This document shows positions 2,769 to 63,329 of a stretch of DNA of 64,000 nucleotides, one piece after another. The notes below the pieces were generated by a model. The model made no database searches. It was not told the DNA's origin and worked only from the letters and a program-made list of their open reading frames with translations. The stretch spans positions 1-64,000 of the forward strand of contig JBBFKQ010000005.1 of assembly GCA_037481935.1 (NCBI GenBank). Reading direction: 5' to 3'. The number at the start of each line of letters is the position of its first letter. Position 1 is the first letter of the stretch. The translations under genes and the position numbers were made by a program. The stretch comes from Aquificaceae bacterium. GTDB lineage: Bacteria > Aquificota > Aquificia > Aquificales > Aquificaceae.

Positions 2769-4511
2769 TTACCTCCAGTAGCAGTCTGTGTTGTAGGGGT
2801 GGTCAAGGACTTTTACATTGGGCCTTCTGTCCACTTCAATGTTCTTCTTCTTCCTTATGTAGTCTACAACTATGTCCCTTATGTTCTTCTTCTCTGGCTG
2901 GACTCCCATGGGAGGTGGGCCACCGTAGACTGCAACCACATACTCTTTGTCCATCTCTATGGGCTTGCCCTTAATCTTTACGTTCCTTATCCTTTCGCCC
3001 TGCTTTGCGTTAATTTTCAGCTCATATTCCACTCCGTATATCCTCGACATGTCTCCACCCTGCTGATACAGGGGGTTGGGGTTAAACACGTTGTCCGCCA
3101 CATCTTCCCAGAGCACAAGAAGGTCTCTACCCTTTCTTTTCATTATAAATACTTCTGGGTAGGTCATACCCAGCACATCGTAGACATGTTCCACCGTTAT
3201 CTTCTGACCGGGGAGGACAGTTGTCCCCCATCTGAAGCCTGGAGATGTGCCCACATCAAGGGACATAACCGCATCCACGCCGTGGTAGTAGTCTGCAAGA
3301 GCTTCGCCTATAAGCCTGTCCCATGTGCTGAAAACCGTATCTCTCTTATAGAGCAAGGTGTTGGCAGTTCCTATGACGGTGTTGAACTCCTTTTCATAAG
3401 AAGCATACCATTTTCTAACCAGCTCCTTTGCTCCCTTATCCTCCGGCACCACATCAGAAAGAACTGGTATGAGCTTGAGCCTGTAGCCATGAAGTTTACC
3501 ATTTCTCACATCAAGGTCCATCCTTCCCACAAACTTACCATGTGAACCGGGTGAGATTATAAGTGTATCTCCTACCTTAACTGGAGTGGGTGTTATATCG
3601 TGGGTATGGCCGGATATAACTATATCAATACCCTTTACGATTTTCATCAGGGCTATGTCAAGGGGAAGACCATCGTGGGAAAGCAGTATAACAAGGTCAA
3701 CCTTGTGTTTTTCCCTGAGCTCATTCACATACTTCTGAAGCTCGTCGGGCCTGACGCCAAAGCTCCAGCCCTCTGTGTATACCCTCGGGTTTGCAAGGGG
3801 TGTGAAGGGGAAGGAGCTTCCTATTATGCCAATCTTAACGCCACCCTTTTCCACCACATCGTAAGGGGGAAAGACAAGGTCTCCAAAGGGCTCTTCTGTT
3901 ATGTTGTAGGAGATAAACTTTGCCTTGAGCTTGTTTTTGACTATGTCAAGAAACTTTTCCTTTCCAACGGTCACATCCCAGTGGGCCACCATATAGTCAA
4001 AGCCCACATAGTTAAGCCAGTCAACCACGGCCATCCCATCAGTTTTGACCGCAATACCAGAGGTCGCCCATGTATCACCTCCATCAAGCACCAGACACCT
4101 GTCCTTGCCCCTTTCGTTAACTATGGTTTTTATAACTGTGGCAACTTGCGGTCCACCACCGGTCATGCCGTATAGCTTTGCCAGTCTTATAAAACTCACA
4201 CATGAACCCATGTAGGCTTCCACAGAACCCGGCTTTATGTTGTAGAACTTCAAAAAGTCCGTGCCAGCAAGATATCCGGGAGTCCCCTTAAGGGCTTCTG
4301 GAGCAAGCAGGTTCATAGGCTCGGCAAAATACATGGGCTTGAGGTGGCCATGAAAGTCAGATATGAAGACAAGTGTAAGATTTCCATATGGCTTGAACTC
4401 CATCAGCTTTTCAAAGCTCACAGGTCTTTTTGCAAAAGCTTCTGGGGAAAAAGCCAGTGCAGAAAGAGCTAAGGCGGAGTATCCAAGGAATTCCCTCCTA
4501 CTAAGGCTCAT
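2769..4511 (-). CDS. soxB: Thiosulfohydrolase SoxB
   Basis: Periplasmic dimanganese hydrolase of the Sox pathway that removes sulfate from S-sulfonated SoxY. It has the 5'-nucleotidase fold: metal-site motifs near the N terminus (ISDFHGHLKP), LDGGDTW, a histidine in AHWDVTVG, LLSHDGL and SGHTHDI. The length of 580 residues is normal for the family. The N terminus has a twin-arginine signal, SRREFLGYSA, so it is exported folded. I place the start at the ATG at 4511, six bases after a perfect GGAGGT, rather than the upstream TTG. It lies between soxX and the DUF302 gene. Confidence 0.95.
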   Translation of the reverse strand: MSLSRREFLGYSALALSALAFSPEAFAKRPVSFEKLMEFKPYGNLTLVFISDFHGHLKPMYFAEPMNLLAPEALKGTPGYLAGTDFLKFYNIKPGSVEAYMGSCVSFIRLAKLYGMTGGGPQVATVIKTIVNERGKDRCLVLDGGDTWATSGIAVKTDGMAVVDWLNYVGFDYMVAHWDVTVGKEKFLDIVKNKLKAKFISYNITEEPFGDLVFPPYDVVEKGGVKIGIIGSSFPFTPLANPRVYTEGWSFGVRPDELQKYVNELREKHKVDLVILLSHDGLPLDIALMKIVKGIDIVISGHTHDITPTPVKVGDTLIISPGSHGKFVGRMDLDVRNGKLHGYRLKLIPVLSDVVPEDKGAKELVRKWYASYEKEFNTVIGTANTLLYKRDTVFSTWDRLIGEALADYYHGVDAVMSLDVGTSPGFRWGTTVLPGQKITVEHVYDVLGMTYPEVFIMKRKGRDLLVLWEDVADNVFNPNPLYQQGGDMSRIYGVEYELKINAKQGERIRNVKIKGKPIEMDKEYVVAVYGGPPPMGVQPEKKNIRDIVVDYIRKKKNIEVDRRPNVKVLDHPYNTDCYWR

Positions 4512-13894: not shown

Positions 13895-13911
13895 TGCCTA
13901 TATTTTATCCA
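13895..13911. promoter_or_regulatory. Overlapping divergent -10 boxes, surE / DnaC-like gene
   Basis: The 17-bp gap holds TATATT on the plus strand (13899-13904, seven bases before the ATG at 13912) and TAAAAT on the minus strand (13907-13902, seven bases before the surE ATG). The boxes overlap, so only one polymerase can bind at a time. Confidence 0.5.
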
Positions 13912-43216: not shown

Positions 43217-43234
43217 GGTTAATATTTTAAAGTT
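43217..43234. promoter_or_regulatory. Overlapping divergent -10 boxes, lipoate-ligase-like gene / AAA+ gene
   Basis: Eighteen bases separate the GTG at 43216 from the ATG at 43235. TAAAAT on the minus strand (43229-43224) is seven bases from the GTG; TATTTT on the plus strand (43223-43228) is six bases from the ATG. The boxes overlap. Confidence 0.4.
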
Positions 43235-56004: not shown

Positions 56005-56033
56005 GGTAGAGTTATTATAATATTAGCATAGGC
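56005..56033. promoter_or_regulatory. Divergent -10 boxes, secreted-protein gene / DUF503 gene
   Basis: TATAAT on the minus strand (56019-56014) is nine bases before the GTG at 56004. TATAAT on the plus strand (56016-56021) is 12 bases before the ATG at 56034, with TATTAG (56021-56026) seven bases before it. The two TATAAT boxes overlap as TTATTATAATATT. Confidence 0.5.
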
Positions 56034-58862: not shown

Positions 58863-58879
58863 GAGTATAATTATAAGCC
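58863..58879. promoter_or_regulatory. Palindromic TATAATTATA with divergent -10 boxes, asd / GT39 gene
   Basis: The 17-bp gap holds TATAAT on the plus strand (58866-58871, eight bases before the ATG at 58880) and TATAAT on the minus strand (58875-58870, seven bases before the asd ATG). The two share the palindrome TATAATTATA. No room is left for leaders or Shine-Dalgarno sites. Confidence 0.55.
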
Positions 58880-60232: not shown

Positions 60233-61279
60233 ATGGACATTAAGCCGGAGCAGATATACAGCCTTGAAGATAGAGTGCTTGTGGACATAAGAAGTCCCTC
60301 TGAGTATGAGGAGTTTCACATACCGGGTGCTGTTAACCTGCCCCTCTTTGAAGATGAAGAAAAAAAGCTCATAGGGCTCGTATACAGAAGTGAAGGGGTG
60401 GAGAAGGCTAAAAATCTTGGATATGAGATAGCAGGCTCAAAGCTGGAAGTTCTATTAAGAAGGTTCAGGGAACTAAAGGAAAGGCACGGGCATGTGGTGG
60501 TCTACTGCTGGAGGGGTGGATTGAGAAGTCAGGAGCTTTGCAGGTTTCTCAGCTCAGTGGGCCTGGAAGTTCTCAGGCTGGCAGGAGGCTACAGGGCATA
60601 CAGGGAGTTTATACTGAGGGATATGGAAAGGCTGTTAGAAAACAAGAAGTTTGTGGTGCTTACTGGCAGGACAGGGGTGGGGAAAACGCTCCTGTTGAGA
60701 AGACTGAAAAAGGATGGCTACCCTGTTATTGACCTTGAAGGGCTTGCAAAAGACAGAGGCTCAGCCTTCGGAAGGGTGGGCATAGGAGAAAGGGTCAGTC
60801 AGAAGATGTTTGATGCCCTGCTTTATGAGAGCCTTCGCAAGATTAGCTCAGACCTCATCTTCACCGAGGATGAGAGCAGAGTAATAGGCAACATACATCT
60901 TCCACAGGCTTTCTGGAAGAAGAAGGAAGAGGGCATATACGTAGAGGTTCATGCCTCACATGAAAGGAGAGTTAAAACCCTTGTGGAGGAGTATACCGGC
61001 TTTGATGGTTGGCAGGAAGAGGCAAGAAGGTCTCTTCTCAAGATAAGGAAATACCTTGGAGAGGGTAAATACTCAATAGCTCTCGAGATACTGGAAAAAA
61101 ATATGGCAGAAGACCTTGCAGAGTTTCTCATAAGGGAATACTACGACAGAACTTACAAACTTCACAAAAATACCCTTTTCAGGCTTGATTGTAATGACTT
61201 GGAGAAGTGCTATGAGAATCTGAAGGAGCTATATTCATGCCTTCTTAAGGAAGGGGTAGCTCCTGAGCCTTGCAGGTAG
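60233..61279 (+). CDS. mnmH: tRNA 2-selenouridine synthase
   Basis: Replaces sulfur with selenium in 2-thiouridine at the tRNA wobble base (SelU/YbbB). The N-terminal rhodanese domain has the catalytic cysteine C92 in VYCWRGGLRSQ; the P-loop domain has TGRTGVGKT (144-152). The 348 residues are full length. It implies selenophosphate supply (SelD) elsewhere in the genome. Its 3' end overlaps the converging gcvT by 45 bp, the longest such overlap in the window. Confidence 0.93.
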   Translation: MDIKPEQIYSLEDRVLVDIRSPSEYEEFHIPGAVNLPLFEDEEKKLIGLVYRSEGVEKAKNLGYEIAGSKLEVLLRRFRELKERHGHVVVYCWRGGLRSQELCRFLSSVGLEVLRLAGGYRAYREFILRDMERLLENKKFVVLTGRTGVGKTLLLRRLKKDGYPVIDLEGLAKDRGSAFGRVGIGERVSQKMFDALLYESLRKISSDLIFTEDESRVIGNIHLPQAFWKKKEEGIYVEVHASHERRVKTLVEEYTGFDGWQEEARRSLLKIRKYLGEGKYSIALEILEKNMAEDLAEFLIREYYDRTYKLHKNTLFRLDCNDLEKCYENLKELYSCLLKEGVAPEPCR

Positions 61280-62254
61280 CCTTCTGTTTCTAACCTGCAC
61301 ATGGACCTCAAGACCTTCAATCCTGAAGTCCACAGACACAAAGCACAGGGCTATGCCTTTCTGAAGATTTGGGGAGAAGGTGCCACTGCTCACATAACCT
61401 ATTTCCCTGTCTTGGTAGAAAATTTTGTATCCTTCCCTTGGGACACCTCTCTGAAGAATTTCAAGACCAAAGAGCCTCCTTTCCACCCTCCTTCCGAGAA
61501 GTGCCTCTTTTCCGATGAAGTCCTTATTCAGGCTCACATACCTGTCAAGGTTCGCCTCAAAGGGGCTTATATCCTCAGAAATCTCGTGCCCGTAAAGGGG
61601 CATACCCGCCTCTATTCTCAAAACATCCCTTGCACCCAGCCCGCAGGGCATGCATTCCATAGATATCTCCATGAAGAGCTCTACCCCCTCCTTCAGGGGT
61701 GCATAGACTTCAAAACCGTCCTCTCCCGTGTAGCCCGTGCGTGATACTAGGGTGTTTCCAAAAAGCTGAAAGCTGTAGTATTTCATGTCCTTCACGGGAA
61801 AGTATCTGTCCAGCAGTGAAACTGCCTCAGGTCCCTGAAGGGCAAACTGCACCCACTCTTTGCTCATATCCTTTACAGAAAGACCATTTTCTTTCAACCA
61901 TGCCACCACCTTCTCTCTGTTGCCTGCATTTACACACATAAAAAACTCCTCTTCGGAGAGCCTGTAGAAGGTTATATCCTCCTTTATTCCACCCTCAGGA
62001 TTGAGAAAGAGATTGTAATGAACCTTTCCAACCTTTAACCCTTCTATGTTTCTGGAAGTCAGATACTGCAACTTGTCAAAGCCATCAAAAATCAACAGCC
62101 TTCCCATATGGGATATGTCAAAAAGACCACAGGAGTTTCTGACAGCTCTTGCCTCTTCTGCTATTGAGGTGTATTCCAGGGGCATCTCCCATCCTGCAAA
62201 CTGGAAAAACCTTGCACCAAGGGCTCTGTGCTGAGAGTAGAGGGGTGTTCTCAT
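61235..62254 (-). CDS. gcvT: Aminomethyltransferase, glycine cleavage T protein
   Basis: Transfers the aminomethyl carbon from lipoyl-H protein to tetrahydrofolate, and in autotrophs may run towards glycine. The start RTPLYSQHRALGARFFQFAGWEMPL (part: FAGWEMPLEY), LFDISHMG, RTGYTGEDGFEVY and GLGARDVLRIEAGMPLYGHE (part) are family signatures. Length 339 is slightly short but complete. It depends on lipoyl cofactors made by LipA. It shares a 16-bp divergent promoter gap with the lptF/G gene. Confidence 0.95.
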   Translation of the reverse strand: MRTPLYSQHRALGARFFQFAGWEMPLEYTSIAEEARAVRNSCGLFDISHMGRLLIFDGFDKLQYLTSRNIEGLKVGKVHYNLFLNPEGGIKEDITFYRLSEEEFFMCVNAGNREKVVAWLKENGLSVKDMSKEWVQFALQGPEAVSLLDRYFPVKDMKYYSFQLFGNTLVSRTGYTGEDGFEVYAPLKEGVELFMEISMECMPCGLGARDVLRIEAGMPLYGHEISEDISPFEANLDRYVSLNKDFIGKEALLGRRVERRLFGLEILQRGVPREGYKIFYQDREIGYVSSGTFSPNLQKGIALCFVSVDFRIEGLEVHVQVRNRRLPARLRSYPFLKKA

Positions 62255-62270
62255 ATTAAAATTTTAGCCT
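62255..62270. promoter_or_regulatory. Palindromic TTAAAATTTTAG with divergent -10 boxes, gcvT / lptF-G
   Basis: TAAAAT on the plus strand (62257-62262) is eight bases before the ATG at 62271. TAAAAT on the minus strand (62266-62261) is six bases before the gcvT ATG. The whole gap between the two start codons is 16 bp. Confidence 0.55.
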
Positions 62271-63329
62271 ATGCTCAACAGATACATTCTTCTCAACCAC
62301 ATGAAGACCTTTCTGCTCCTTCTTATGGTTCTCATGGGTATACTCTACGTCTATCTTGTAGGTGAGGTTCTGCTCCTTTTCAAGGACAAAAGCCCCGATG
62401 TTCTTCTCACTTATACGCTTAACTTTTTGCCTACGGCCTTCTTCTATTCAGGCGCTTTTGTGAATGCCCTTGCGCTGCTTGTGGCTTTCAGAAGACTTTT
62501 TCAGAAGAAAATAGACCTTCTCCTGCAGAGCTTTGGTATCTCACCTCTGAGATTTTTTCTCTGGGTTCTGCTTTTTTCCCTTTTTCTTTCATTTCTTAAC
62601 CTTCTGGGCAGTTTTCAGCTATACCCGGAAAGTCAGAGAAAGCTCTTCAGCATAGAGAAGGAATACAGGAAGGCAAAAGAAACGGAAAGCGGAATAGTTA
62701 GAAATCTATGGCTTACAGAAGAAGAGAAGGGAGGGGTAAACTTTTACAACTTTGAACTTGTGGACCTTTCCACGGGTAAGGTGCACGGGTTCTATCTCCT
62801 CAAGGTTAGGGAAGGGTCCATAAGGCAGATGGTTACTGCCAGCGCAGGAAGATGGGAAGGTAAAAGACTGGAGTTTTCTCAGGCGAGCCTTAGGGACCTT
62901 GCCACTGGAGAGGAGAAGGTTCAAAAGTTTACCACTGACTTTCTTGAGCTTTCCCAGATAAGGCCACTCGCTGAAAAGCCAGAACACCTTTCCATAGGGG
63001 ATGTTTTTATCCTGAGCCTTCTAGGCGAGAAAATAGGCATTAACTACAGACAGTATGCCTACGAACTGGCAAAAAGGGTGCTCACTTCCTTGCTTCCCCT
63101 CTCTATGAGTCTTATAGTTGGCTGGGTTTATATAAGATGGCGACAGCTAAGGCTTGGGCTCTTTGCCCTCCTTCTGTCTTTCTCCTCTCACTGGTTTTTT
63201 ATAAATGCCATGAGGTCCATCATAGAGAATACGGACCTGAACCTTTACCTCACATACCTCATATACGTGCCCATACCTCTTGTGGCTTTAAAAGCACTTT
63301 ACGATTTGGGAAAAGGCTTCAGGGTCTAA
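62271..63329 (+). CDS. LptF/LptG family LPS export permease
   Basis: A 352-residue inner-membrane protein with the YjgP/YjgQ layout: three N-terminal helices (starting LLNHMKTFLLLLMVLMGILY region, FYSGAFVNALALLVAF), a periplasmic beta-jellyroll domain (about 120-245, FYNFELVDLSTGKVHGFYL) and three C-terminal helices (LLPLSMSLIVGWVYI, LIYVPIPLVALKALY). It pairs with LptB ATPase to lift LPS. F and G types cannot be separated here. Its end overlaps tpiA by 42 bp. Confidence 0.88.
   Translation: MLNRYILLNHMKTFLLLLMVLMGILYVYLVGEVLLLFKDKSPDVLLTYTLNFLPTAFFYSGAFVNALALLVAFRRLFQKKIDLLLQSFGISPLRFFLWVLLFSLFLSFLNLLGSFQLYPESQRKLFSIEKEYRKAKETESGIVRNLWLTEEEKGGVNFYNFELVDLSTGKVHGFYLLKVREGSIRQMVTASAGRWEGKRLEFSQASLRDLATGEEKVQKFTTDFLELSQIRPLAEKPEHLSIGDVFILSLLGEKIGINYRQYAYELAKRVLTSLLPLSMSLIVGWVYIRWRQLRLGLFALLLSFSSHWFFINAMRSIIENTDLNLYLTYLIYVPIPLVALKALYDLGKGFRV

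Follow-up and report, generated by a model that had tools for sequence, protein, structure and literature searches.

TA-led genes, in which the motif TANNNT lies about 12 bp 5' of the start codon, make up 20.7 to 32.4% of the genes in the two positive genomes among five Aquificae (PMC3160421). The main comparative paper on the Aquificales describes Shine-Dalgarno (SD) and Pribnow motifs, and the words leaderless and divergent are absent from it (PMC4227106). Symmetric -10 elements are known to drive divergent transcription from pairs of start sites that lie 7 to 25 bp apart, most commonly 18 bp (PMC12825309, PMC10268837). The preferred spacings listed for these bidirectional promoters are 18, 10, and 23 bp (Warman et al. 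2021 and 2026, PMC12825309; Salmonella, PMC10268837). In a further study, both divergent mRNAs of the Mycobacterium tuberculosis prpD/Rv1129c pair are leaderless by transcription start site mapping, and closely juxtaposed divergent promoters are called common there (Cell Rep 2013, PMC3898074). Here we describe a 16-nt divergent junction of an Aquificaceae bacterium in which a TANNNT signal at each gene is combined with an overlap between the two signals.

Results

The window is the whole stretch of DNA that was analyzed, 64,000 nucleotides in length. Within it, positions 62255 to 62270 separate two divergent genes. The minus-strand gene is gcvT (61235-62254), encoding a glycine cleavage aminomethyltransferase of 339 aa that scores above the curated cut-offs of TIGR00528 and NF001567 and matches PF01571. 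The plus-strand gene (62271-63329) encodes a 352-aa LPS export permease of the LptF/LptG type, which matches PF03739 with 93 bits, above the gathering score, without reaching the NCBIfam equivalog cut-off of either LptF or LptG.

The whole intergenic gap, 62255-62270, is a proposed bidirectional core promoter of 16 nt and reads ATTAAAATTTTAGCCT. An earlier note on this DNA had given its sequence and coordinates, which proved correct on re-reading, and had described a TAAAAT on each strand, overlapping, 6 and 8 nt from the two ATGs; both hexamers were seen as stated. The -10-like hexamer of the LptF/LptG-type gene occupies 62257-62262 on the plus strand, 8 nt from the ATG at 62271, and that of gcvT runs from 62266 to 62261 on the minus strand, 6 nt from the ATG at 62254. 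Positions 62261-62262 are common to both hexamers, a 2-bp overlap, so this junction has -10 hexamers on opposite strands that overlap with common base pairs, as bidirectional promoters do. The first T of the hexamer falls at -12 for gcvT and at -14 for the permease gene, and both genes thus have the TANNNT about 12 bp 5' of the start codon that defines TA-led genes. The palindrome named in the earlier note is exact over the 10-mer TAAAATTTTA (62257-62266), but the 12-mer is not fully palindromic, its outer T and G being unpaired. The sequence TTAAAATTTTAG occurs once in the window, against 0.04 occurrences expected.

We consider it probable (about 0.86) that 62255-62270 consists of two -10 elements, each giving rise to a leaderless mRNA, which overlap and are squeezed to the physical minimum. 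The gap would be a bidirectional core promoter with two overlapping sigma70-type -10 elements whose last two base pairs are common to both. RNA polymerase would bind and melt one AT-rich patch in either orientation, and in each orientation the start of transcription would coincide with the first base of the ATG or lie no more than about 2 nt from it. This prediction follows from distance: when a -10 box ends 6 to 8 nt before an ATG, transcription is expected to start at the start codon, and both mRNAs are therefore expected to be leaderless. The gcvT mRNA and the LptF/LptG-type permease mRNA would then be leaderless or nearly so, with no need for an SD site. On the permease side, the distance of 8 nt is 2 nt beyond the usual 6-nt discriminator, so that this mRNA could carry a leader of 1 to 2 nt. 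The predicted spacing of the start pair is 17 bp with starts at both ATGs and 15 bp with 6-nt discriminators (g1 register). The palindrome would be what remains of two hexamers, each fixed 6 to 8 nt from its own ATG, when they are forced into a near-minimal gap; it would result from compression, two boxes having been fitted into one 16-nt gap. Neither the leaderless mRNAs nor this origin of the palindrome had been mentioned in the earlier note. Only mutually compatible overlaps, of 2, 3, or 5 bp, would leave a good -10 box on each strand, and polymerase bound in one direction would exclude the other direction. We infer in this way that both hexamers are used, that both RNAs are leaderless, and that initiation takes place at both ATGs.

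No SD site was found at a working distance in either upstream region of the junction. In the family sample described below, an SD motif was present at 3% of starts at gaps of 13 to 24 nt, versus 48% of operon-internal starts. SD and TAnnnT excluded each other almost perfectly (1 of 253); since the windows for the two motifs overlap, geometry accounts for part of this exclusion, and it was not taken as main evidence. A -35-dependent promoter at 62255-62270 was considered and rejected, since a search for a consensus -35 found no promoter-like -35/-10 pair at 61800-62700; in classical sigma70 terms, the junction has no TTGACA-like -35 at the 16- to 18-nt upstream spacing. With no consensus -35 present, promoter strength would rest on the -10 elements and their flanks alone. 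The -35 columns of the family alignment likewise held little information, with TTG at -23 in 9 of 125 g1 promoters.

At leaderless-type promoters with longer gaps, an excess of G was seen family-wide four bases before the hexamer (31 to 43%). This G was often within a TG at -5/-4 of the hexamer (10 to 22%, versus about 5 to 6% elsewhere). Relative to the TGn of the Escherichia coli extended -10, such a TG is displaced outward by two bases, and it may be an extension particular to this family.

The gcvT|LptF/G junction was followed through 17 clean orthologous junctions, 13 from the genus and 4 from a sister genus, g7. Each of the 13 genus members examined has a gap of exactly 16 nt; their LptF/G-type proteins are 45 to 100% identical. 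Mean pairwise identity within the genus was 83% for the gap versus 44% at neighboring third codon positions. T1, A2, and T6 of both hexamers were invariant in 13 of 13 members; the few changes in the core fell at inner hexamer positions, and the remaining variation was in the gap flanks. In the four g7 genomes the pair is still divergent, with a gap of 24 nt. There the hexamers stand in a different overlap register (ATTTTACAAT, with a common TA), and their distances of 6 and 8 nt to the same ATGs are unchanged. The start-pair spacing that the g7 sequence implies is 23 bp. The earlier note had named divergent orthologous junctions without the hexamers as the outcome that would refute it, and 0 of the 17 clean junctions lack a hexamer on either side.

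The hexamers were also found where the two genes have parted. In genus g6, in which gcvT lies away from the permease gene, TAAAAT or TACAAT precedes the ATG by 6 to 8 nt at 7 of 8 gcvT genes. In genome G047, the permease gene has TAAAAT 8 nt before its GTG start (locus L080, start near 3606). The hexamers thus stay with the gene in g7, g6, and G047, which argues that each of them tracks its own gene. A third genus, g3 (2 to 3 loci, L142-L144), has a divergent gcvT/permease pair with a gap of about 24 to 26 nt by the chosen starts; the gcvT-side hexamer is kept, and the permease start codon, and accordingly the hexamer distance there, is uncertain. In genus g4 (L018, L019, L022, L023), gcvT has no TAnnnT 6 to 8 nt before its start, unlike in g1, g3, g6, and g7. 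Two further observations were made at these loci. The gene called beside the permease gene in G047 now has the same orientation, and no close gcvT match was found in that genome. The gcvT match at L006 (G049:C8:12446-13459) has a single TAG in frame, which may reflect a pseudogene, a sequencing error, or readthrough.

These comparisons bear on whether one direction only uses the gap promoter, with the mirror hexamer being a side effect of -10 symmetry and the promoter of the other gene located inside its neighbor. Such an arrangement has precedent, in that symmetric -10 elements often fire nonproductively one way (PMC10268837), and in some family pairs with gaps of 14 to 20 nt just one of the two genes has a hexamer. 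We nevertheless think it unlikely here. T1, A2, and T6 are kept in both hexamers rather than in one, each hexamer of g7 shifts together with its own ATG, and neither gene has the SD site at working distance that would be expected if its transcript began upstream and carried a leader.

The window has 10 divergent junctions in all. At four of them (13895, 43217, 58863, and 62255) the gap is 16 to 18 nt and TAnnnT is present on both strands 6 to 8 nt from the start. The earlier note had counted five of ten as alike; there are indeed ten junctions, four of which have the strict design, but the fifth (56005-56033) is looser, with a 29-nt gap and TATAAT-like hexamers, one 9 nt and the other 10 to 12 nt from the start. 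The match that it drew between 62255 and 58863 holds, since both have two hexamers with a 2-bp overlap, in gaps of 16 and 17 nt. The latter gap (58863-58879, GAGTATAATTATAAGCC) separates asd on the minus strand from an ArnT/PMT-like glycosyltransferase gene on the plus strand, with TATAAT 8 and 7 nt from the starts. Between surE (minus) and an IstB/DnaC-like ATPase gene (plus), the gap is 17 nt (13895-13911, TGCCTATATTTTATCCA), with both hexamers at 7 nt and a 3-bp overlap. Between a lipoate-ligase-like gene with a GTG start (minus) and an AAA ATPase gene (plus), it is 18 nt (43217-43234, GGTTAATATTTTAAAGTT), with distances of 7 and 6 nt and a 5-bp overlap.

Orthologues of these other junctions were looked up in the sampled stretches of genome G026. 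The counterparts of 13895-13911 and 43217-43234 are still divergent, each with a gap of 19 nt (from 17 and 18 nt, respectively) and hexamers on both strands. The counterpart of 56005-56033 is divergent as well, with a gap of 27 instead of 29 nt and TATAAT-like boxes both ways.

A perfect 10-bp palindrome conserved across a genus could instead be the operator of a dimeric regulator of both genes, its likeness to -10 elements being secondary. The palindrome, however, varies by junction (TAAAATTTTA, TATAATTATA, and TAnnnTA forms), and the constant feature between junctions is a TAnnnT whose distance from each ATG is fixed. The paired genes are functionally unrelated (gcvT/lptF-like, asd/glycosyltransferase, and surE/ATPase), and g7 retains the ATG distances although its palindrome is disrupted. 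We hold this explanation to be very unlikely, and the palindrome probably does not serve a regulator as its operator.

A survey of close divergent starts, which the earlier note had proposed, was run on sampled stretches of nine family genomes (2.26 Mb, 2,400 genes, and 312 divergent pairs). Genes were called from their coding potential with upstream sequence ignored, and the starts are computed rather than experimental; two start-choice rules gave the same TAnnnT peak. As controls, the same caller was applied to E. coli, to the Thermus plasmid pTT27, and to two genomes that belong to the same order or class but to different families. Divergent gaps of 14 to 20 nt made up 36 of 312 in the family versus 1 of 92 in the controls (Fisher P = 8e-4), a family-wide pile-up, and gaps of 30 nt or less made up 94 of 312 versus 4 of 92 (P = 3e-8). 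Only 7 gaps of 7 to 13 nt were seen in the family sample. The distribution of gaps has its lower edge at about 14 nt, which equals a hexamer plus a discriminator; with a shorter gap, one box would run into the start codon of the other gene.

TAnnnT ended 6 to 8 nt before 41% of the approximately 620 divergent starts of the nine genomes. At control offsets the values were 9% (14 to 16 nt) and 11% (20 to 22 nt), and at operon-internal starts the value was 14%. Among the 36 family pairs with gaps of 14 to 20 nt, 28 had TAnnnT on both strands 5 to 9 nt from the start, and 8 were without a two-sided hexamer. In gaps of 13 to 20 nt, the main registers were the 2-bp overlap, TAnnATnnTA (11 pairs, including 62255-62270), and the 5-bp overlap, TAnnnTA (10 pairs).

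These data address the explanation that no element has been selected and that the hexamers reflect the chance AT-richness of short gaps when a genome is compact. Gap sequences are indeed AT-rich, and TAnnnT is frequent in them, to the extent that dinucleotide shuffles of the 36 gaps still gave 7.3 ± 2.4 two-sided pairs; the 28 observed, however, exceed the maximum of 14 reached in 200 runs. Chance also fails to account for the sharp positional peak of TAnnnT before divergent starts or for the excess of gap identity over third codon positions, and the AT-richer outgroups G083 (GC 0.32) and G099 (GC 0.36) have neither the TAnnnT peak nor the short gaps. Both the positional and the conservation tests refute chance AT-richness, which we regard as extremely improbable. 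The claim of the earlier note that this is a standard divergent-promoter element is upheld by the comparison with shuffles and by the persistence of the junction in relatives. Junctions of this kind are standard in the family.

The Thermus thermophilus plasmid pTT27 (L197, L199-L201) has a TAnnnT peak at 6 to 7 nt, yet only 1 of its 21 divergent gaps is 30 nt or less. In this small sample, leaderless use by itself may not yield compressed junctions.

Discussion

The junction at 62255-62270 would be close to the smallest possible divergent promoter, with about 16 bp acting at once as the spacer between the genes, as a pair of -10 elements, and as two translation starts. It belongs to a conserved natural set that could be used to study how polymerase chooses its orientation without a -35, and it also informs the placement of leaderless start sites and the limits of bacterial genome compaction. 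A practical use is in fixing gene starts during annotation of the family. A more tentative proposal, possible but short of an even chance, is that the family's doubly leaderless bidirectional -10 is a selected standard junction in which mutually exclusive orientations balance two unrelated mRNAs, in a TAnnATnnTA register outside the reported preferred spacings.

Both ingredients, leaderless genes and symmetric -10 elements, are known; the novelty lies in finding them routinely combined, and conserved in that combination, within one family. A search of open-access text found no description of a routine fusion into a minimal 14- to 20-nt junction, of strict genus-wide conservation, or of a switch of register between genera. 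These three features appear to have been undescribed so far.

Among the known systems, the EcoRV restriction-modification promoters are alike in that two divergent core promoters overlap and polymerase cannot occupy both. They differ in being regulated with a C protein, and the leaderless transcript described in the available part of that paper belongs to the convergent system AhdI rather than to EcoRV (PMC5333194). The prpD/Rv1129c junction differs in that it joins a regulator and its target in another phylum, and the accessible portion of its report describes no pile-up of minimal gaps and no overlap register. The signal of Zheng et al. (2011; PMC3160421) is the same as here, a TANNNT about 12 bp upstream (12 to 14 bp here) with no SD. 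Those authors scored single genes and not divergent pairs, whereas here two signals are interlocked.

The bidirectional promoters (PMC12825309, PMC10268837) are alike in that their -10 hexamers on opposite strands overlap and have base pairs in common. The 17-bp start pair predicted here falls inside their 7- to 25-bp definition and near the 18-bp mode, and the 5-bp overlap (TAnnnTA) found at about ten family junctions is their commonest register. The commonest register in this family, however, is the 2-bp overlap at the 3' ends (TAnnATnnTA), which is outside their list of 18, 10, and 23 bp. A further difference is that both RNAs are predicted here, from start sites placed by sequence, to be leaderless, so that the promoter would be the intergenic region itself.
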